Assembly: GCF_009789225.1 (NCBI RefSeq)
Contig: NZ_WSTA01000013.1
Coordinates: 1-56,946, forward strand
Origin: Agromyces seonyuensis
GTDB taxonomy: Bacteria > Actinomycetota > Actinomycetes > Actinomycetales > Microbacteriaceae
DNA length: 56,946 bases
Direction: 5' to 3'
The notes beneath the pieces are model-generated. The model searched no databases. It had not been told where the DNA came from and worked only from the letters and a program-made list of their open reading frames with translations. Both the position numbers and the translations under genes were made by a program. Shown here piece after piece: positions 30,771 through 41,786 of this stretch. Within the stretch, counting starts at the first letter, position 1. Every line of letters starts with the position of its first letter.

Positions 30771-31075
30771 GTCCGCACTCCTCCGCTTTCTCCGGTCTCG
30801 GCCGCGCGCCGTCGATTCGTCGTTCGCGCCGACCTCATGGCCGTACCGGCCTCCATGCTCCGTCCGAGGGCCGGCCGGCCGCGCCCGTGGTCGACGCGGG
30901 CCGATCCCGGGGCGCCCCCGGGGGCTCGCGCACCCGCCGCGGTCATCGGCCGACGGCCACGACGACCAGGGAGTCGACCAGTGGGTTGCCCTGGTGACTG
31001 CGTGCGTTCGGGACGGCAGGCTCGAACGAGCCGCCCGGGACGCCGTGGCGGGCCCCCATGGAAAGGAACCACCCG
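30771..31075. other. Divergent spacer between DUF2255 and SnoaL genes
   Basis: Open frames run through this 305-base region but none resembles a known protein. It should hold the two divergent promoters; AAAGGA near 31062 serves the short leader frame at 31076. No strong -10 match or hairpin was found. Confidence 0.45.
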
Positions 31076-31117
31076 ATGATGACCACCCCCACGTTCTCGT
31101 CGGCGGAACACGGATGA
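31076..31117 (+). CDS. Possible 13-codon leader peptide coupled to SnoaL gene
   Basis: ATG ATG starts the peptide MMTTPTFSSAEHG. AAAGGA lies 8 bases upstream, while the following SnoaL gene has no ribosome site of its own. The TGA at 31115 overlaps the SnoaL ATG at 31114 (ATGA). This arrangement suggests that ribosomes load here and re-initiate on the SnoaL frame. The peptide has no run of one amino acid that would suggest classical attenuation. It could also be chance. Confidence 0.4.
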   Translation: MMTTPTFSSAEHG

Positions 31118-31551
31118 CCGAAGCGCTGCCGCCCCTCGACCGGCTGCTCGTGCTCGAAGAACTGCGTCGCCTGCAAGCGCGGCTCTGCGACGCGGCCGTC
31201 GCCCGCGAGTGGACCGAGGTGGACGCCCTGTTCAGCGCCGACGGCCGCTTCCGGGCGTACGAGATCGGAGGCGAACTGGCCTGCTTCACGTCGAGCCCCG
31301 GCATCGGCGCGGCTCTCGAGCATGCGGTCGGCGCTGGGCGGGTCGTCCTGAGCTCGAGCGACGAGGAACTCGACGCGCTCGCCGAGGATCGCGCCGACGG
31401 AACCTGGACGATCGACGACTCCTGGTACGCGGACGACGGCGATCGGGCGGTGCACGGCGCCGGGTCGCTCGCGCTCGGGTATCGACGCGAGGACGGACAG
31501 TGGAGGATCGCGACCGCCGAGTACACCAGGACCGCACGTGAACCGGCTTGA
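31114..31551 (+). CDS. SnoaL-like / NTF2-fold protein
   Basis: A 145-residue NTF2-like protein: LEELRRLQARLCDAAVAREWTEVDALFSADGRFRAY at the N-terminus (helices with the usual D..F..D pattern) and a closing sheet GAGSLALGYRREDGQWRIATAEYTRT. Such folds include polyketide cyclases and steroid isomerases; the role here is unknown. It is only distantly like the SnoaL protein at 3892. Its start overlaps the small leader frame; it ends 43 bases before the first LAL regulator and could be co-transcribed with it. Confidence 0.78.
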   Translation: MTEALPPLDRLLVLEELRRLQARLCDAAVAREWTEVDALFSADGRFRAYEIGGELACFTSSPGIGAALEHAVGAGRVVLSSSDEELDALAEDRADGTWTIDDSWYADDGDRAVHGAGSLALGYRREDGQWRIATAEYTRTAREPA

Positions 31552-31594
31552 GGCGCTCCCCGCGCCGCTGCGGCGCCCGATACACTCCCTACCC

Positions 31595-34408
31595 ATGGTG
31601 CCCAGGGAGCACGGGCCCGGTCTGATCGGGCGCCGCCGCGAGCAGGAGCGGCTCGATCGGCTCATCGCGAGCGTCCGCGGCGGCGAGAGCCGCGCGCTGG
31701 TGATCCGCGCCGAAGCCGGGCTCGGGAAGACGCTGCTGCTGGATCACCTCGCCGCGCAGGCCCGGGGCTGCCGCGTGCTGCGGGTCGTCGGCGTCGAGTC
31801 CGAAATGGAACTCGCCCACGCGGGCCTGCAGCAGCTCTGCGCGCCGATCGTCGACGGCATCGACGCGCTGCCCGAACCGCAGTCGCTCGCCCTCGGCGTC
31901 GCGCTCGGCCTGCGCACCGGGCCGGCGCCCGACCGCTTCCTGCTGGGCCTGGCCGTGCTCGGACTGCTCAGCCATGCCGCCGAGGCGCAGCCGCTGCTCT
32001 GCCTCGTCGACGACGCCCAGTGGCTCGATCAGGCCTCCTCCCAAGTACTGACGTTCGCCGCCCGACGCCTCGTCGCCGAGTCCGTCGGACTCGTCTTCGC
32101 GGTGCGCGAGCCGGTCGACGAACGCTTCGCCGCGATCGAGGACCTGGTCGTCCGACCGCTCGATGACGACGCCGCACGGACGCTGCTCGGCTCGGTCCTC
32201 AGCGGGCCGATCGACCCCGCGGTGCGCGATCGGATCATCGCCGAAGCGCACGGGAACCCGCTCGCCCTCGTCGAACTGCATCGCGGCGTCGGCGAGTTCG
32301 GACCGCCGGCGATCGGGCGGACCGGGATGGGCGCGAAGCTCGAGGACGCATTCCGTCGCCGCATCGAACGGCTCTCGCCGGAGACGCGGCGCATGCTGCT
32401 CATCGCGGCGCTCGAACCGGTCGGGGACCCCGCGCTCGTCCTCGCGGCAGGCGCCGAGTTCGACCTGGACGACTCGGCCATCGTGCCCGCCATCGAAGCC
32501 GAGCTCCTCGAACTCGGCGGTCGATTGCGCTTCCGGCACCCGATGGCCCGATCCGCCGTGCTCGCCGCCGAATCGGCCGCGGATCGGCGAGCAGCGCACC
32601 GGGCGATCGCCGAGGCCACCGACCCCGATCGCGACCCCGACCGGCGCGCCTGGCACCTGGCCGAAAGCACGATCGGGTTCGACGAGGAGATCGCCGCCGA
32701 GCTCGTGCACTCGGCCGACCGCGCCCGCCTCCGCGGTGGGATGGTCGCGGCCGCGAGGTTCCACGCGAGGGGCGCCGAACTGACCCCCGACCGACGCCTC
32801 CGCTCCCGACGCACCCTCATGGCCGCGGAGGACACACTCCGTGCGGGCGCCGCGAACGAGGCGCTCCGACTGCTCGACCGCATCGAGCCGGGTCTGCTCG
32901 ACGCGCATCAACGCGCTCGCGCCGAGCTGGTCCGCGGGCATGCGCAGTTCTACACCCGCGGGACCGACAGCGTCGGCATCCTCCTCGAAGCCGCGCGAAG
33001 CCTGGAGTCGTATGACGGCCACGCCGCGGTCGCGACGTACTCGGACGCGCTCATCCGCGCCCTGCTCGCCGGTTCGACCGATCGCGACGCCGGCATCGAA
33101 CAGGTCGCGGCGGGCATTCTCGCAGCGGACCCGAGCGACCTCGATGCCCGCTCGGGCGCCGCGTTCGAGGCGCTTCGCGGTCTCGCCATCCTCATCCGCG
33201 ACGGATACGCGGCCGCCGCCCCGACGTTGCGCGCGGCGCTCGCAGCCCTCCGGTCGCCGGCCGCGGTCGCCGGGAGCGGGCGCCGAACCGACCCGCGTCG
33301 TGGACTCGGCGCCGACGTGAGCGAGGGCATCCGGGCGATGAGCTGGATGCCGCTGACCTGCCTGGTCGCGCGAGTCCTGCTCGATGACGCCGTGCTCGAG
33401 GAGTGCTCGCGCGAGTTCGTCGACGCCTGCCTGGCCGACGGGGTGCTCTCGAGGCTCGCGATGGCGACGGCCGAGTACTATCCGGTCCTGCTCATGAGCG
33501 GCCGGATCGCCGAAGCCGAAGGGCTGCACGAACGCGTCCGCGACGTCATGTCGGCGACGGATGTGCCGGCCCACCCGGACCGCGGCGGCTGGTTCGCCGC
33601 CTACCGCGGCGACGACGAGGCCGCGCGTCGCTCGTCGGAGGCGGTGCACGCCCGAGTCGCCGCGCGGCGGGAGCGCCAGTGGTTGCTTGCGGACGCCGTG
33701 GTGGCGGGTGTCCTGCACAACTCGCAAGCGCGCTATGCCGAGGCGTTGGCGGCGACGACCACGGTGGACGGGCATCCGTTCGACCTCGGCATGGCCGGTT
33801 GGGTGCTGCCGGAGCAGGTCGAGGCCGCCGTTCGGTCGGGCGACCCCGAACTGGGCAGAGCCGCAGCCGAGCGCCTCGACGAGATCGCGGCCGCGTCCGG
33901 CACCGACCTGGCGGTCGGTCTTGCGGCGCGGTCGGCGGCGCTGCTGGCCGATGACGCGGACGCCGAGGCCCTCTACCTGGCCGCGATCGACGCCCTCGCA
34001 CGCACCCGCATCGGCACCGCACAAGCCCGCGCCCACCTGCTCTACGGCGAATGGCTGCGCCGGCAGAACCGTCGCGTCGAAGCCCGCGAGAGCCTCCGCC
34101 TGGCCCACGAACGATTCGTCGCCGACGGCGCCCACGCCTTCGCCGAACGCGCCGCCCGCGAACTGTCCGCCACCGGCGAGATCGTGCACCGCTCCGCCGT
34201 CGGCCCCGTCGACGAACTCACCGCCCAGGAACGCCAGATCGCCCGCCTGGCCGCCGGCGGCGCCACCAACCCCGAGATCGGCGCCCAACTCTTCCTCAGC
34301 CCCCGCACCGTCGAATGGCACCTGCGCAAAGTGTTCGGCAAACTCGCCGTCACCTCCCGCCGCCAACTCGCCGCAGCCCTGCGCGACCCCGCCGCCGCAA
34401 CCGGCTGA
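31595..34408 (+). CDS. LAL-type LuxR-family ATPase regulator (copy 1)
   Basis: A 937-residue STAND-type regulator. The N-terminal AAA/NACHT-like ATPase has Walker A AEAGLGKT (39-46) and a Walker B-like LLCLVDDAQWLDQAS near 128-142. A long helical, TPR-like middle (about 330-790) probably senses a ligand. The C-terminal LuxR HTH is LTAQERQIARLAAGG...PEIGAQLFLSPRTVEWHLRKVFGKL. ATG 31595 was chosen because TACACT (31581-31586) lies 8 bases upstream, suggesting a leaderless start; GTG 31538 is an alternative. The last ~165 codons are identical in DNA to copy 2. Confidence 0.9.
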   Translation: MVPREHGPGLIGRRREQERLDRLIASVRGGESRALVIRAEAGLGKTLLLDHLAAQARGCRVLRVVGVESEMELAHAGLQQLCAPIVDGIDALPEPQSLALGVALGLRTGPAPDRFLLGLAVLGLLSHAAEAQPLLCLVDDAQWLDQASSQVLTFAARRLVAESVGLVFAVREPVDERFAAIEDLVVRPLDDDAARTLLGSVLSGPIDPAVRDRIIAEAHGNPLALVELHRGVGEFGPPAIGRTGMGAKLEDAFRRRIERLSPETRRMLLIAALEPVGDPALVLAAGAEFDLDDSAIVPAIEAELLELGGRLRFRHPMARSAVLAAESAADRRAAHRAIAEATDPDRDPDRRAWHLAESTIGFDEEIAAELVHSADRARLRGGMVAAARFHARGAELTPDRRLRSRRTLMAAEDTLRAGAANEALRLLDRIEPGLLDAHQRARAELVRGHAQFYTRGTDSVGILLEAARSLESYDGHAAVATYSDALIRALLAGSTDRDAGIEQVAAGILAADPSDLDARSGAAFEALRGLAILIRDGYAAAAPTLRAALAALRSPAAVAGSGRRTDPRRGLGADVSEGIRAMSWMPLTCLVARVLLDDAVLEECSREFVDACLADGVLSRLAMATAEYYPVLLMSGRIAEAEGLHERVRDVMSATDVPAHPDRGGWFAAYRGDDEAARRSSEAVHARVAARRERQWLLADAVVAGVLHNSQARYAEALAATTTVDGHPFDLGMAGWVLPEQVEAAVRSGDPELGRAAAERLDEIAAASGTDLAVGLAARSAALLADDADAEALYLAAIDALARTRIGTAQARAHLLYGEWLRRQNRRVEARESLRLAHERFVADGAHAFAERAARELSATGEIVHRSAVGPVDELTAQERQIARLAAGGATNPEIGAQLFLSPRTVEWHLRKVFGKLAVTSRRQLAAALRDPAAATG

Positions 34409-34433
34409 ACACCCCCGGGGAGCGACCAGGGAG
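33910..34433 (+). repeat. 524-bp direct repeat, copy 1 (3' end of LuxR gene)
   Basis: From 33910 to the stop at 34408 and on to 34433 the sequence matches 36994-37519 base for base as far as I can read, apart from a C-run of five versus seven at 34412. Upstream of 33910 the genes differ, with patches of near identity around 33715-33840. Confidence 0.92.
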
Positions 34434-34549
34434 CACGATTCGGGGAATCGAGTCGTTCGTCCCTGGTGCGCGCACCCGGTGCGGGAGTTGACTTCCGGAG
34501 AACACGCACGGACGCCCGACTGCGCCCGGACCGGAAGGGATCCCCGACC

Positions 34550-37492
34550 ATGCACCCCACCCCCGAGTCGCCTTGGACGCAGCGCGCGACGGAACCCCCG
34601 GTGTCTCTGAGCGGCGCGAGCACGCCGACCGTGCGGGCGCTGCCGCCGCGCCCCTCGAACTCGACGAGCTCGACGCCGGGCGAGCGCCGACCCGGTCTGA
34701 TCGGCCGTCGGCGCGAGCGGGACCGACTCGATCGGGTGGTCGCGAGCGTCCGAGGCGGTGAGAGCCGTGCCCTCGTGGTGCGCGCTGCAGCGGGACTCGG
34801 CAAGACGATGCTGCTCGATCAGCTCGCGGAACGGGCATCCGGCTGCCGCGTGCTGCGGGTCGTCGGCGTCGAATCCGAGATGGAGCTCGCCCTCGCGGGC
34901 CTGCAGCAGCTCTGCGGCCCGATCATCGACGGCATCGACGCGCTGCCCGAGCCGCAGTCGCTCGCCCTCGGCGTCGCCCTGGGCCTGCGCGCCGGGCCGG
35001 CCGCGGATCGCTTCGTGCTGGGCCTGGCCGTGCTCGGGCTGCTGAGCAACGCGGCTGAGGCCCAGCCGCTGATCTGCCTGATCGACGACGCCCAGTGGCT
35101 CGACCAGGCGTCCTCCCAAGTGCTGGCGTTCGTCGCGCGCCGCCTCCACGCCGAGTCCGTCGCGGTCGTCTTCGCCATGCGCGAGCCGGTCGACGAGCGT
35201 TTCGCCGCGATCGAGGAACTCGTCGTCCGGCCCCTCGACGACGTCGACGCGCGGACCCTGCTGGATGCCTCGGCGCGGGGGCCGCTCGACCGCGCGGTGC
35301 GGGAACGGATCGTCGCCGAAGCTCGCGGGAACCCGTTGGCGCTCGTCGAACTGCACCGGGGCGCCGGGGAGTTCGAGCCGTCGGCGTCGGGCCGGGCCGG
35401 GATCGGCACGCAGCTCGAGGAGGCCTTCCTCGGCCGCATCCGGCGGCTGCCGGCCGCCACCCGCCGCATCCTGCTCCTCGCCGCACTCGAACCGGTCGGC
35501 GACCCCGGGCTCGTGCTCGAGGCGGCCTCCTCGTTCGACCTCGATGCCGCCGCGCTCGCCCCGGCGATCGAGGACGACCTGATCGAGTTCGCCGGTCTGC
35601 TGCGGTTCCGCCACCCGCTCGTGCGGTCCACGGTCGTCGCCGCGGAGTCCGCCTCGGATCGCCGGGCGGCGCATCGCGCGCTCGCGGATGCCACCGATCC
35701 CGAATCGGACCCCGACCGGCGGGCGTGGCACCTCGCGGAGAGCACCCTCGGGTACGACGAGGAGGTGGCGGCCGAACTCGTCCGCTCGGCGGACCGCGCC
35801 CGGGTGCGGGGCGGCATGCTCGCGGCCGCGAGCTTCCACGCCCGCGGTGCCGAGCTGACGCCGGATCGTCGGATGCGCTCGCGCCGAACGCTCATGGCGG
35901 CGGAGGACACGCTCCGGTCCGGGGCGGTGCAGGACGCGCTGCGGCTGATCGAGGGAGTGGAGCCGGAGCTGCTCGACGACCATCAGCGCGCGCGTGCCGA
36001 CCTGGTCCGCGGGCACAGTCGGTTCTACGTCTCCCCCGGCCGGGACGGCGCCCGCGTGCTGCTCGAGGCCGCCCGACGTCTCGAGCCCTTCGATGGCGAC
36101 GCCGCCGTGGCGACGTATGCGAACGCGGTCATCGCGGCGGTCCTCGCCGGTTCGCTCGCGGGCGAAGTCGGCATCCGGGAGACTGCCGCCGCGATCATCG
36201 CCGCCTCCCCGGCGCGGCCGATGAGCGTCGGTTCGGCGGCGGCGTTCGACGCGCTGCACGGGATCGCGACGGTCGTCCTCCACGGGTACGGAGCAGCCGC
36301 ACCCTCCCTGCGGGCGGCGCTGGCGACCCTGCGCTCCCTCGTCGATGTCGCCCCGACCGCACCGGAGCGCACGAGCGACGTCCGCGGGTACGGCGCCGAT
36401 CTCAGCGAGGACGTCTGGGAGATGCGCTGGCAGCCCCTCATCTGCCTGCTCGCCCGCATCCTGCTCGACGACGACGCGTATGTCGATGCGTCGCGGCGGT
36501 TCGTCGATTCCTCCCGCCGCAACGGTGCGCTCTCGACGCTCGCCATGGCGATGTCGGAGCACTACCCCGCCTTGCTCATGAGCGGTCGGATCGCCGAGGC
36601 CGAGGAGCTCTACGACGCGGTCCGCGAGATCATGGCGGCCAGCGACGTGCCGGAGGGACCGGACCGGGCCGGATGGTTCGCCGCGTACCGCGGCGACGAT
36701 GCGGCCAAACAGGAGTCGGCCGCCGCGGTCGCGCATCGCGTCGCGGAGCGCGGCGAAGCCCAGTGGCGGCTCTCGGACCGCATGCAGGACGGCATCCTGC
36801 ACAACTCGCAGGCGCGCTATGCCGAGGCGTTGGCAGCGACGGCGTCGGCCGACGGGCATCCGTTCGATCTCGGGTTGGCCGGTTGGGTGCTGCCGGAGCA
36901 GGTCGAGGCGGCCGCACGGTCGGGCGAACCCGACTCGGGGCGAGCGGCGCTGCGCCGCCTCCAGGAGATCGCCGAGGCGACCGGTACCGACTGGGCGGTC
37001 GGTCTTGCGGCGCGGTCGGCGGCGCTGCTGGCCGATGACGCGGACGCCGAGGCCCTCTACCTGGCCGCGATCGACGCCCTCGCACGCACCCGCATCGGCA
37101 CCGCACAAGCCCGCGCCCACCTGCTCTACGGCGAATGGCTGCGCCGGCAGAACCGTCGCGTCGAAGCCCGCGAGAGCCTCCGCCTGGCCCACGAACGATT
37201 CGTCGCCGACGGCGCCCACGCCTTCGCCGAACGCGCCGCCCGCGAACTGTCCGCCACCGGCGAGATCGTGCACCGCTCCGCCGTCGGCCCCGTCGACGAA
37301 CTCACCGCCCAGGAACGCCAGATCGCCCGCCTGGCCGCCGGCGGCGCCACCAACCCCGAGATCGGCGCCCAACTCTTCCTCAGCCCCCGCACCGTCGAAT
37401 GGCACCTGCGCAAAGTGTTCGGCAAACTCGCCGTCACCTCCCGCCGCCAACTCGCCGCAGCCCTGCGCGACCCCGCCGCCGCAACCGGCTGA
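34550..37492 (+). CDS. LAL-type LuxR-family ATPase regulator (copy 2)
   Basis: A 980-residue paralogue of the preceding gene with the same layout: Walker A RAAAGLGKT at 78-86, LICLIDDAQWLDQAS, a TPR-like middle and the LuxR HTH at the end. The N-terminal 45 residues (Pro/Ser/Thr-rich) are longer than in copy 1. The ATPase part is strongly similar (many identical blocks) and the middle less so, but residues ~816-980 are identical, codon for codon. GGAAGGGA lies 9 bases before the ATG. Oxalate decarboxylase follows 141 bases downstream on the same strand. Confidence 0.9.
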   Translation: MHPTPESPWTQRATEPPVSLSGASTPTVRALPPRPSNSTSSTPGERRPGLIGRRRERDRLDRVVASVRGGESRALVVRAAAGLGKTMLLDQLAERASGCRVLRVVGVESEMELALAGLQQLCGPIIDGIDALPEPQSLALGVALGLRAGPAADRFVLGLAVLGLLSNAAEAQPLICLIDDAQWLDQASSQVLAFVARRLHAESVAVVFAMREPVDERFAAIEELVVRPLDDVDARTLLDASARGPLDRAVRERIVAEARGNPLALVELHRGAGEFEPSASGRAGIGTQLEEAFLGRIRRLPAATRRILLLAALEPVGDPGLVLEAASSFDLDAAALAPAIEDDLIEFAGLLRFRHPLVRSTVVAAESASDRRAAHRALADATDPESDPDRRAWHLAESTLGYDEEVAAELVRSADRARVRGGMLAAASFHARGAELTPDRRMRSRRTLMAAEDTLRSGAVQDALRLIEGVEPELLDDHQRARADLVRGHSRFYVSPGRDGARVLLEAARRLEPFDGDAAVATYANAVIAAVLAGSLAGEVGIRETAAAIIAASPARPMSVGSAAAFDALHGIATVVLHGYGAAAPSLRAALATLRSLVDVAPTAPERTSDVRGYGADLSEDVWEMRWQPLICLLARILLDDDAYVDASRRFVDSSRRNGALSTLAMAMSEHYPALLMSGRIAEAEELYDAVREIMAASDVPEGPDRAGWFAAYRGDDAAKQESAAAVAHRVAERGEAQWRLSDRMQDGILHNSQARYAEALAATASADGHPFDLGLAGWVLPEQVEAAARSGEPDSGRAALRRLQEIAEATGTDWAVGLAARSAALLADDADAEALYLAAIDALARTRIGTAQARAHLLYGEWLRRQNRRVEARESLRLAHERFVADGAHAFAERAARELSATGEIVHRSAVGPVDELTAQERQIARLAAGGATNPEIGAQLFLSPRTVEWHLRKVFGKLAVTSRRQLAAALRDPAAATG

Positions 37493-37519
37493 ACACCCCC
37501 CCGGGGAGCGACCAGGGAG
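36994..37519 (+). repeat. 526-bp direct repeat, copy 2 (3' end of second LuxR gene)
   Basis: Matches 33910-34433. It includes the whole helix-turn-helix, the stop codon and about 25 bases beyond. Because silent sites are also identical, selection on the protein alone cannot explain it. Confidence 0.92.
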
Positions 37520-37633
37520 TGCCAGTCGACTGGTCGCGTCGTCCGGCCCTTCCCCATCGCCCCCGCGCCGCGTTGACTGTCAGGCATCGAACGGTTCTCG
37601 ATCGAGGCCGACCACGGAGAGAGGACACCGACG

Positions 37634-38836
37634 ATGACCGATGCGCCCCATCACGAGACGCCCACGTTCGGCAACCCCGACCTGCCGCCGGAAGGCGAGG
37701 TGAACACGGCTGGAGATCCGCAGAGCCTGAGGATGCCGGGTCCGCAGAATCCGGTGATCGAGTCCCAGTTCCCGAACCAGATCGACGCCCCGGCCACGGA
37801 CGTCGGCACGCAGGCGTTCTTCTGGTCCTCGTTCAACATCTCCCCGAGGCGGGTGCAGCGCGGCGGCTGGGCCCGAGAGCTCACTCAGCACGACTTCGCG
37901 ATCTCCGACGAGATCGCCGGCGTGAACATGTACCTGGAGGCCGGCGGCATCCGCGAACTCCACTGGCATCAGACCGCCGAGTGGGCCATCATGACCCGCG
38001 GTCGGTGCCGGGTCACCACCCTGGGGCGCACCGGTCTGCCGAGCGTGGAGGACGTCGAAGAGGGCGACCTGTGGTTCTTCCCCGCCGGCACCCCGCACTC
38101 GCTGCAGGGCCTCGGCCCCGACGGAGCCGAGTTCGTGCTCGCCTTCGACGACGGCGACCAGTCCGAATCCAACACCCTCCTGCTCTCGGAGTGGTTCGCC
38201 CACACTCCGCCGGACGTGCTCGCGAAGAACTTCGGCGTCGCCCAGGAAGCCTTCCAGGACATCCCCTTGCACGGCCTCTGGATCTTCCCCGGCGACGAGC
38301 CCGGCCCGCTCGAGGACGATCAGGCCGCCGCCGGCGTCGAGTGGGGCTCCGAAGCCGTGATCTTCCGGATGTCCCGGACGGCTCCTCGCTTCGAGAACAG
38401 CGGCGGCAGCATCCGCATCGCCGATTCCTCGAACTTCGCCTCCACCACGGTGGCCGCCGCGCTCACGGTCGTCAATCCCGGCTCGATGCGCGAACTGCAC
38501 TGGCATCCCAACGCCGACGAGTGGCAGTACTACCTGCAGGGGCAGGGGCGGATGACCGTGTTCAACACGGGTCCGCACGCGAACACCACCGACTTCCGGG
38601 CCGGCGACGTCGGTGTGGTGCGGCGCAATCTCGGGCACTACGTCGAGAACACCGGTGACGAACCGCTCGTCTACCTCGAGACGTTCCGGTCGAGCCGCTA
38701 CGAGGAGGTCTCGCTCGCGAATTGGCTCGCCCACGTCCCGCCGGCGCTCGCCGCCGCGCATCTGAACATTCCGCCGGAGGTGCTCGCGACGTTCCCGCGG
38801 ACGACTCAGGGGATCACGCCGCTGCGCGGTCAGTGA
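37634..38836 (+). CDS. oxdC: Oxalate decarboxylase-like bicupin
   Basis: A 400-residue two-cupin protein. Mn-binding residues are intact in both cupins: H110, H112, E116, H155 and H289, H291, E296, H335 (ELHWHQTAEW; ELHWHPNADEWQYY; GHYVEN). The lid loop reads S177-E178-S179-N180, close to SENS of Bacillus OxdC, whose Glu is the proton donor that separates decarboxylase from oxidase, so decarboxylation of oxalate to formate and CO2 is likely. This consumes a proton and can raise pH. GGAGAGAGG lies upstream of the ATG. It sits between LAL regulators. Confidence 0.9.
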   Translation: MTDAPHHETPTFGNPDLPPEGEVNTAGDPQSLRMPGPQNPVIESQFPNQIDAPATDVGTQAFFWSSFNISPRRVQRGGWARELTQHDFAISDEIAGVNMYLEAGGIRELHWHQTAEWAIMTRGRCRVTTLGRTGLPSVEDVEEGDLWFFPAGTPHSLQGLGPDGAEFVLAFDDGDQSESNTLLLSEWFAHTPPDVLAKNFGVAQEAFQDIPLHGLWIFPGDEPGPLEDDQAAAGVEWGSEAVIFRMSRTAPRFENSGGSIRIADSSNFASTTVAAALTVVNPGSMRELHWHPNADEWQYYLQGQGRMTVFNTGPHANTTDFRAGDVGVVRRNLGHYVENTGDEPLVYLETFRSSRYEEVSLANWLAHVPPALAAAHLNIPPEVLATFPRTTQGITPLRGQ

Positions 38837-39017
38837 CGCCGGAGGTCCGATTCGGAGGGCTGCTCCCGATATCGGACGAAAAGCGGCGGGAAACCGACAT
38901 TTGTTGCTGATCATGTCCCGCTGTGCGTGGTCGGCGGCGTGCCCGGTGATCCAATACAGGCATGCGTTTTCCGAGGTTCCCCCGAACGGAAACCGCCCTC
39001 GCAGCCGAGCTCCGCCC

Positions 39018-41786
39018 GTGAGCGCCGTTCGGGTCTCAGGGCCGGGTCGAGCCACGCTCTTCGGACGAGCCGCCGAAGTCGCCCGCCTCGACGAGTTCGT
39101 CGACCGAGTGGTGCGCGGCGGCGGCGGCACGATGGTGGTGCGCGGGCCGGCCGGCGTCGGCAAGTCGCGGCTCCTCGGCGAGGCGGCGGATGCCGCGCGC
39201 TCCCGCGACTCCTCGGTGATCTCGGCCTCGGGAGTCGAGTTCGAAGCCGAGATCGGCTTCGCGGTGCTGCAGATCATCGTCGCCCCGCACCTCGAGCACC
39301 GGTCCGAGCTGCCGGCCGGCCATGCCGAAGCGCTCGGCGTCGCCCTCGGACTGCACGACGGCCCGACCCCTCGACCGCTCGTGCTCGGTTCGGCCGTCCA
39401 CTCGCTGCTCACGCTCGCCGCCGCGCGGCGCCCGATCCTCATCGTCGTCGACGACCTGCCCTGGGTCGACCCCGCCAGCGCCGGCATCCTCGCGTTCCTG
39501 TCGCGGCGGTTGGACGGGACGCGCATCGGCATCCTCATCGCGCACCGCTCCGAAGACGGACCGGGCGTCGAGCTCCCCGACGCCGAGGTGCTCGACGTCG
39601 GGCCACTCGACGAGCATCCTGCCCGGCAATTGCTCGCCGCTCGCCGCCCCGACCTACCCGCGCATCTGCGCGCACGGATCCTCGACGACGCCAGCGGCAA
39701 TCCGCTCGCCCTCGTCGAGCTCTCGCGCGGGGCATCCGACGAACACCGCCGCTGGCCGGCCGTGCTCCCCCGCACCCGCACCCTCCCCCAGCGCCTGCTC
39801 GCCCTCTTCGCCGATCGCATCGACGCGCTGCCCGCGGATGCCCGCCGCGCCCTCCTCACCGCGGCACTCGACGCCCGGACCGGCCTCCGGGAGCTGCGAT
39901 CGATCGGCATCACGGCCGACGACCTCGAGGCCGCGCAGCGCGTGGGCCTCGTCACCATCGACACGGTCCGGATGAGCGTCGTCTTCACGCATCCCCTCAT
40001 GCGCGCCGCCGTGGTCGAGCGCGCGGAGCCCGCCGACCGGCGCGCGGCCCACGGCGACCTCGCGCGGGCGCTCGCCGCATACCCCGACCGCCAGGCCTGG
40101 CATCTCGCGGACGCCGCCACGGGGCCGGATGACCGCATCGCGGACGAACTCGCCGCACTGGCGCATCGGCTGCTCCGACGCGGCGACGCCAGCAGCTCGG
40201 TGCGCGCGCTCATCCGCGCCGCCCACCTCAGCGAGTCCCGGGCCGTCGAGAGCAGTCGCCTCGCCGAGGCCGCCTACCTCGGCGCGCACGTCACCGGCGA
40301 GATCGGCCAGGCCACGCAGCTGCTCACGCGCGCCGAGGAGGCGAGCCCGGAATCGGCGACGTCGCTGCTCGCCGCAACCGCCGGCGCACTCACCGGCATC
40401 AACGCCGACGGCGACGTGGACTCCCTCCACCGCCTGCTGGTCGCCGCGATCGAGCACGGCGACCACGACTGGAGTTCGGGCAACGACCAACTCGTCGAAG
40501 CGATCAGCGCCCTCGTGCTGCTGTGCTGGTGGTCGGGCCGCCCCGAGTTCTGGGAGCCGCTGCACCGCGCACTCGAGCGCTTCGGCGACGACCTGCCCGA
40601 ACTGCTCGACGTGCAGAGCAAGGCGTTTCCCGACACCGTCCGCACGGGCGCCGCCGTGCGGGACCGGCTCGCCGCACTGATCGACACCCAGCAGTCGGTC
40701 TACGAGCCGCAGAAGATGATCCGGTTGCAGACCTCGGCGGTCTACCTCGACCTGCTCGGCGGCTGCCGAGCTGCCGCCTGGCGCATCGTCGAGGACGGGC
40801 GTGCCGGGGGCGCGGTCCGTTCGAGCATCGGCGGCTACATGCACCTCTGCCTCGACGACTTCGTGACCGGGCGCTGGGAGGAGGCGCGAGCCCTCGCCGA
40901 CGAAGGACTCGCCGTCAGCCGGGACCGCGGCTACGACTACATCGCCTGGTACTTCGTGTTCAACCAGGCGCTCATCGAGTCGGTCCGGGGCGAACCGGCC
41001 GAGGCCTTCCGGCTCGCCGACGAGGTCACCGCGATCACCGCGGCGCGGAACGCACTCGGCGGCGAACGGTTCGGGCATCAGGCCCGCACCCTCGCGGCGA
41101 TCGCGCAGGGCGACTGGGAGGCCGCGTTCCGGCACGCCTCCGCGCTCAGCCCCGCCGGCGAGTTCCGCGCCTACACGCCGCATGCGATGTGGGTGGCCTT
41201 CGACCTCGTCGAAGCCGCGCTCCGCACGGGGCGCCGGGCCGAGGCCGAGGCGCATGTTCGGGCCATGGACGACGTCGGACTCGAGCACGTGTCGCCGCGC
41301 ATGGCGCTCATCGCACACGGCGCCCGCTCGCTCGTCGCCGAGCCCGAGGAGGCGGCCGCGGCGTTCGAGCGGGCCGTCTCGGTGCCGAGCGCGGAGCGGT
41401 GGATCTTCGACCTCGCCAAAGTGCGCCTCGCGTACGGCGACCGACTTCGCCGCGGCGGCGAGAGCCGAGCCGCCAGGCCCCAGCTCCACCTCGCGCACGA
41501 CGCCTTCGAACGACTGGGCGCACGTGCCTGGACGGAGCGCGCGAACGAGTCGCTCCGGGCCGCGTACGACCCGGAGGTGCGCGGGACCGCGACCGGCGAG
41601 GCGCTGACCGCCCAGGAGCGCGCGGTGGTCGAACTCGCGGCCCAGGGCCTCAGCAACCACGACATCTCGGTGCGCCTCTTCCTCTCGCCCCGTACGGTCG
41701 GCGGCCACCTCTACCGCGCGTTCCCGAAGCTCGGTGTGACGAGCCGGGCCGGCCTGCGAGACGTGCTGGACCGGCTCGACCAGTGA
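39018..41786 (+). CDS. LAL-type LuxR-family ATPase regulator (third)
   Basis: A 922-residue regulator with Walker A GPAGVGKS (43-50), a Walker B-like LIVVDDLPWVDPASAG, a helical middle and a C-terminal LuxR HTH (LTAQERAVVELAAQGLSNHDISVRLFLSPRTVGGHLYRAFPKLG). It shares the architecture of the two upstream genes but is only distantly similar, and its recognition helix (SPRTVGGHLYRAF) differs from theirs (SPRTVEWHLRKVF), so it should read other sites. GTG 39018 gives the usual N-terminus; no good ribosome site is seen, so the start is uncertain. Confidence 0.87.
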   Translation: MSAVRVSGPGRATLFGRAAEVARLDEFVDRVVRGGGGTMVVRGPAGVGKSRLLGEAADAARSRDSSVISASGVEFEAEIGFAVLQIIVAPHLEHRSELPAGHAEALGVALGLHDGPTPRPLVLGSAVHSLLTLAAARRPILIVVDDLPWVDPASAGILAFLSRRLDGTRIGILIAHRSEDGPGVELPDAEVLDVGPLDEHPARQLLAARRPDLPAHLRARILDDASGNPLALVELSRGASDEHRRWPAVLPRTRTLPQRLLALFADRIDALPADARRALLTAALDARTGLRELRSIGITADDLEAAQRVGLVTIDTVRMSVVFTHPLMRAAVVERAEPADRRAAHGDLARALAAYPDRQAWHLADAATGPDDRIADELAALAHRLLRRGDASSSVRALIRAAHLSESRAVESSRLAEAAYLGAHVTGEIGQATQLLTRAEEASPESATSLLAATAGALTGINADGDVDSLHRLLVAAIEHGDHDWSSGNDQLVEAISALVLLCWWSGRPEFWEPLHRALERFGDDLPELLDVQSKAFPDTVRTGAAVRDRLAALIDTQQSVYEPQKMIRLQTSAVYLDLLGGCRAAAWRIVEDGRAGGAVRSSIGGYMHLCLDDFVTGRWEEARALADEGLAVSRDRGYDYIAWYFVFNQALIESVRGEPAEAFRLADEVTAITAARNALGGERFGHQARTLAAIAQGDWEAAFRHASALSPAGEFRAYTPHAMWVAFDLVEAALRTGRRAEAEAHVRAMDDVGLEHVSPRMALIAHGARSLVAEPEEAAAAFERAVSVPSAERWIFDLAKVRLAYGDRLRRGGESRAARPQLHLAHDAFERLGARAWTERANESLRAAYDPEVRGTATGEALTAQERAVVELAAQGLSNHDISVRLFLSPRTVGGHLYRAFPKLGVTSRAGLRDVLDRLDQ

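Follow-up and report, generated by a model that had tools for sequence, protein, structure and literature searches.

Identical 3' ends in two diverged tandem LAL-type regulator genes of Agromyces seonyuensis, most likely a gene conversion tract

How did two neighbouring regulator genes that differ over most of their length come to end in the same sequence, silent sites included? The question is raised by a locus of Agromyces seonyuensis within a stretch of 56,946 nucleotides (contig NZ_WSTA01000013.1, positions 1 to 56,946, hereafter the window). An initial annotation had attributed this pattern to recent gene conversion or recombination, and had further proposed that conversion keeps a common DNA-binding output uniform. 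We assessed the extent of the shared sequence, the age of the gene pair, the explanations that compete for the pattern and the likely direction of copying. The features concerned are the following.

31114..31551, + strand: gene for a SnoaL-like small protein (Pfam SnoaL_4, E 1.9e-9), just upstream of A, marking the ancestral position
31595..34408, + strand: LAL regulator A, 937 aa (AAA_16 and GerE), positional orthologue by synteny, likely donor
34550..37492, + strand: LAL regulator B, 980 aa (AAA_16 and GerE), tandem duplicate, likely recipient
33910..34433, + strand: A's copy of the shared tract, made up of 165 codons, the stop codon and 25 further bases
36994..37519, + strand: B's copy of the shared tract, with two more bases in the C-run and hence 27 bases after the stop
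33992..34405 (A) and 37076-37489 (B), + strand: patch of C-ending codons inside the tract
34422..34471, + strand: terminator-like hairpin after A, lacking a T-run (-34.6 kcal/mol), left arm in the shared tract and right arm in A's own flank
37493..37560, + strand: region after B, with the same left arm, a different right flank and residual in-register homology to the A flank

The two regulators and their shared 3' end

Taking ATG 31595 and ATG 34550 as gene starts, A and B lie head to tail on the + strand, only 141 bases apart. AAA_16 scored above its cut-off in both, and GerE matched with E about 1e-14 at residues 874-926 of A and 919-971 of B (the latter numbered from 34544). Judged by these sequence features, i.e. 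an N-terminal AAA/STAND-type ATPase, a C-terminal LuxR-type helix-turn-helix and a large size, A and B are LAL-type regulators. Residues G42, G44 and K45, together with D139 and D140 (A numbering), are unchanged across 14 aligned proteins and are what we take to be the Walker A and Walker B motifs. An AlphaFold2 model of A built from 14 sequences (mean pLDDT 82.7, pTM 0.64) displays the ATPase, then almost nothing but helix from about residue 316 to 858, then the helix-turn-helix, the last being less certain (10-residue means of 37-73). Solved structures searched with A returned 12 sequences at E <= 0.01, all of them LuxR-type DNA-binding domains aligned to its C-terminal end. An open frame of 1996 codons (31592-37579, - strand) runs antisense to both genes; we attribute it to high GC content.

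The identity described by the initial annotation, silent sites included and with a C-run differing by two, is borne out to the base. Positions 33910-34416 equal 36994-37500 over 507 bases; there follows a run of 5 C in A and 7 in B, after which identity resumes up to 34433 and 37519, respectively. All 165 tract codons are the same in the two genes. The silent-site comparison agrees with this: among codons for a shared residue other than Met or Trp, all 163 inside the tract are identical vs 327 of 526 upstream. When A and B are aligned with seven relatives (nine rows in all), they agree over an unbroken run of 288 variable sites, the maximum in 2000 permutations being 36. Upstream of the tract, the bodies share 68-70% of amino acids and 0.76 of nucleotides, with dN 0.20 and dS 0.64 (NG86) or 1.88 (YN00). 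A search of the own genome with the tract (E <= 0.001) recovered two full copies and nine further matches, each spanning at most 101 query bases.

The tract had been presented as an identical DNA-binding end; the end is indeed identical, but the tract exceeds it. It begins at residue 773 of A, inside a helix of the helical-repeat domain (771-784 in the model), and the GerE match leaves 101 of its 165 residues on the N-terminal side and 11 on the C-terminal side, so that its start is not a domain boundary and about two-thirds of it lie outside the DNA-binding domain. Shorter patches of identity had also been pointed out further upstream. Silent identity is raised at 33713-33845 (33 of 38 codons vs 294 of 488 in the remaining upstream part; p = 0.0008 by Fisher's test for a patch picked post hoc), but the longest secondary runs of A-B agreement (20 and 18 sites) stay within chance, the 95% point of the permutations being 20.

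Age of the pair and origin of the tract

A tree of 29 protein bodies places A and B as sisters (100/99), with branch lengths of 0.23 and 0.24; Microbacterium kyungheense (L039) comes next, and four genomes of the own genus form a separate branch. Among 60 genomes of the genus (the own included), five others gave a match at E <= 1e-100, with one gene each, that of G021 being split over two contigs. Among 398 genomes sampled from the family, in a search scoring two candidates per genome, three matched at E <= 1e-150 and two copies were found only in the genome of the window; neither search, at these thresholds, recovered a second genome with the A-B pair.

A SnoaL match directly precedes the LAL orthologue in all eight loci that include this end (L039, L040, L041, L125, L126, L127, L128 and L133). 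Since the SnoaL-like gene adjoins A, and the 141 bases before B are too short to hold one, A is in the ancestral place. LtrA matches occur in seven of these eight loci, and L135 and L136, which carry a different LAL paralogue, have neither SnoaL nor LtrA. This recurrent neighbourhood could reflect a ligand or partner link; a literature search for the combination of SnoaL, LuxR and LtrA found none. Downstream of B, the window also holds a bicupin of the oxalate decarboxylase family (37634-38836, TIGR03404) and, beyond it, a third LAL regulator (38901-41786) whose body is 32-34% identical to A and B and whose recognition region differs. The close orthologues L126 and L127 (genomes G028 and G023) present patchy differences along the LAL gene, with stretches in the middle that are near-identical, which suggests recombination between these species. 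Their tails looked more diverged (0.85 vs 0.93 of variable sites); window by window, this pattern is patchy and not specific to the 3' end.

At the tandem pair, what is seen is sharply bounded identity, silent sites included, between diverged paralogues, i.e. the pattern expected of a conversion tract. The best explanation, to which we give a probability of about 0.84, is an old tandem duplication followed by one recent conversion event of about 520 bases. Tandem duplication would have produced A and B, which then diverged over most of their length. More recently, a single event of non-reciprocal homologous recombination, presumably RecA-dependent, would have overwritten about 520 bases of one 3' end with the other. 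The copied segment would run from the last helical-repeat helices through the helix-turn-helix and the stop codon as far as the left arm of the terminator-like hairpin, and the C-run would have changed by two afterwards. The part of the initial annotation that proposed recent gene conversion or recombination is thus strongly supported, because the boundaries are abrupt, silent sites are identical and the bodies are those of old sister paralogues. A third copy was considered as donor and rejected, the own genome holding two full copies of the tract and wider searches giving no near donor: six of 398 genomes sampled from the family had a match at E <= 1e-45 (the own included; best other 75%), and seven of 396 sampled from the phylum had a match (best other the same 75%).

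The main open risk to the conversion reading is an assembly artefact, by which two merely similar 3' ends would have been merged into one consensus, or wrong flanks joined through the repeat. The genome is a draft of 169 contigs, and an exact repeat of 507 bases is awkward for short reads. Against this, the copies differ in the C-run and in their flanks, one contig spans both, the window contains no N, and the A and B bodies are about 24% different in sequence; it would be unusual for an assembler to merge ends as different as that. The 400 bases at each contig end have only short matches elsewhere in the genome. On balance, we regard such an artefact as quite unlikely.

A codon switch within the tract and the remaining explanations

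Part of the tract stands out by its codon usage. At fourfold sites of C/G-ending codons, the share of C rises from 0.56 (A) and 0.51 (B) before 33992 and 37076, respectively, to 0.89 after; none of 300 permutations gave a change point of this strength. In A, alanine codons GCC and GCG are found 23:0 in the last 135 codons vs 80:67 before, and leucine shows no shift to C over the same 135 codons (7 to 7). The share of C among all C/G-ending codons of this stretch is 0.85 in A and B vs 0.48-0.61 in L039 and L010-L013, and the highest value for any 135 codons among the 26 other called frames of the window is 0.75. The switch is absent from close orthologues. Among 123 LAL genes, L081 and L086 switch as strongly or more so, far from the 3' end, and C-rich ends also occur in the Kribbella genes L056, L066 and L068. 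A general C-ending cassette was considered and set aside, the ends of L056 and L068 not being duplicated in their own genomes (best other match 71% and 72%, respectively). In the tree of tail proteins, the A/B tail still groups beside M. kyungheense (96/89).

The tail may perhaps be an older mosaic that was present in one copy before the copying. In a stronger version, the 3' end would be an exchangeable output cassette: a foreign-looking, C-ending segment would have entered one copy at about codon 800 and been copied over to the other, such exchanges being selected to keep both sensors on the same operators. We hold this version to be very unlikely.

Being tandem paralogues on the same strand, A and B could also have undergone unequal crossover; a deletion in the triplicate so formed, leaving part of one gene inside the other, would yield the same end product as a conversion tract. 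This route requires two events and is not separable from conversion by sequence alone; we leave it a slim chance.

The sequences beyond the tract bear on a further explanation. Past the end of identity, the A and B flanks agree in register at 19 of 32 bases. As 6 of 20000 shuffles and 2 of 8131 31-mers from the window match as well as this, the flanks appear to derive from a single terminator. B could instead have arrived by duplicative insertion of a foreign body, joined by homology within the tail and illegitimately beyond it, the tail being then duplicated and not converted. Identity does stop 25 bases past the stop codon, where an illegitimate joint could sit; the in-register homology and the position of A and B as mutual sisters nevertheless speak for tandem duplication, and make the insertion highly improbable.

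Lastly, purifying selection on the DNA itself, as a cause of identical tails, finds some echo in the better conservation of the tail protein (82% of amino acids shared with M. kyungheense vs 65-66% in the body) but is already contradicted by the silent sites, the tail's silent identity to the seven relatives being ordinary (0.45-0.62 vs 0.42-0.57 in the body), and retains next to no probability.

Direction of copying, functional output and comparison with known systems

Under the conversion reading, copying probably went from A to B. The fold of tract end and flank is stronger after A (z -3.3) than after B (z -0.7). When only the flank was shuffled, at five flank lengths, 0-12 of 1000 shuffles were as good as native for A vs 11-425 for B; with only the tract end shuffled, the figures were 0-65 and 18-676 of 1000, respectively. 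The better fold of A is partly due to a hairpin that forms entirely inside its flank. Each flank holds one stretch of 8 bases that is perfectly complementary to the tract; 29 of 2000 shuffles attain this for A and 75 of 2000 for B. When tract end and flank are paired as a plain duplex, the energy is an unexceptional -20.8 for A (649 of 2000 shuffles and 587 of 1963 segments of the window do as well) and a stronger -25.6 for B (207 of 2000 and 161 of 1963). The direction is therefore given as likely only, since folding of the whole hairpin favours A as donor whereas plain duplex energy does not. A promoter and terminator consensus scan and Rfam, run over 31000-39000, returned nothing. The last 11 bases of the shared tract (CGACCAGGGAG) occur again at 30963-30973, before the SnoaL gene, with 0.08 matches expected by chance in the window; the similarity stops at about a dozen bases, and we regard this second occurrence as chance or unexplained.

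Concerning output, LSPRTVEWHLRKV, which we take by LuxR family to be the recognition helix, is the same in A, B and all seven aligned relatives (L039, L040, L041 and L125-L128) and differs in the third LAL gene of the window. Given this constancy, the binding specificity of A and B would probably be common even without conversion. An OR gate, in which A and B would respond to different signals on common operators, is plausible, and that the two proteins act on the same sites under different signals is something we only infer. If they truly sense different signals, the pair would make a handy natural system with two inputs and one output.

The proposal that the output module is kept uniform by conversion fares less well. 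Only one significant tract was found, in one genome, and it starts in the helical-repeat domain. A comparison of 50 further LAL pairs from 23 loci, 39 of them complete at both 3' ends, revealed no pair with a common end, the highest silent identity over the last 135 codons being 0.69; this comparison is weak, because the bodies of those pairs are more diverged (nucleotide identity at most 0.66 vs 0.76) and many are on opposite strands. An exact match of 736 bases in the L059 pair was discarded, the stop-to-stop frame of the second gene extending back over the first. Since a common end was seen in none of the other pairs, and the searches recovered A and B together in one genome only, repeated homogenisation is without support, and nothing here shows conversion being used to maintain a pair with two inputs and one output. 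The locus is of interest as a clean natural case in which conversion has most likely affected only part of a gene in a diverged tandem pair of regulators, some hint of its direction being preserved, and as a warning that trees built from the helix-turn-helix end of such genes can mislead on paralogy.

As to architecture, A and B presumably resemble E. coli MalT (ATPase, helical-repeat middle, LuxR helix-turn-helix); the match of the MalT model NF003420 (NCBIfam) is confined to the helix-turn-helix and falls far under its cut-off. An N-terminal ATPase, a long helical-repeat middle and a C-terminal LuxR helix-turn-helix in a protein of the size of A and B (937-980 aa) are likewise found in SCO0877 and SCO7173 of Streptomyces, as far as the available text of PMC3282765 describes them. 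As a point of difference, none of the named NCBIfam equivalog models reached its own cut-off with either A or B.

A survey of LuxR proteins in Actinobacteria (PMC3466318) does not use the words 'tandem' or 'recombination' in its main text, and in the open-licence literature no title on gene conversion in LAL regulators was found. Gene conversion and concerted evolution of paralogues are reported for a PE_PGRS gene pair of tubercle bacilli (PMC1762029), and concerted evolution for 26 prokaryotic genes, tandem pairs included (PMC6053082). In contrast to the latter cases, A and B display one partial-gene tract in one genome and not a recurrent process over a long time. They nonetheless resemble those cases in that paralogues within a genome are closer to each other than to their orthologues, and most likely represent a clean but ordinary case of gene conversion.
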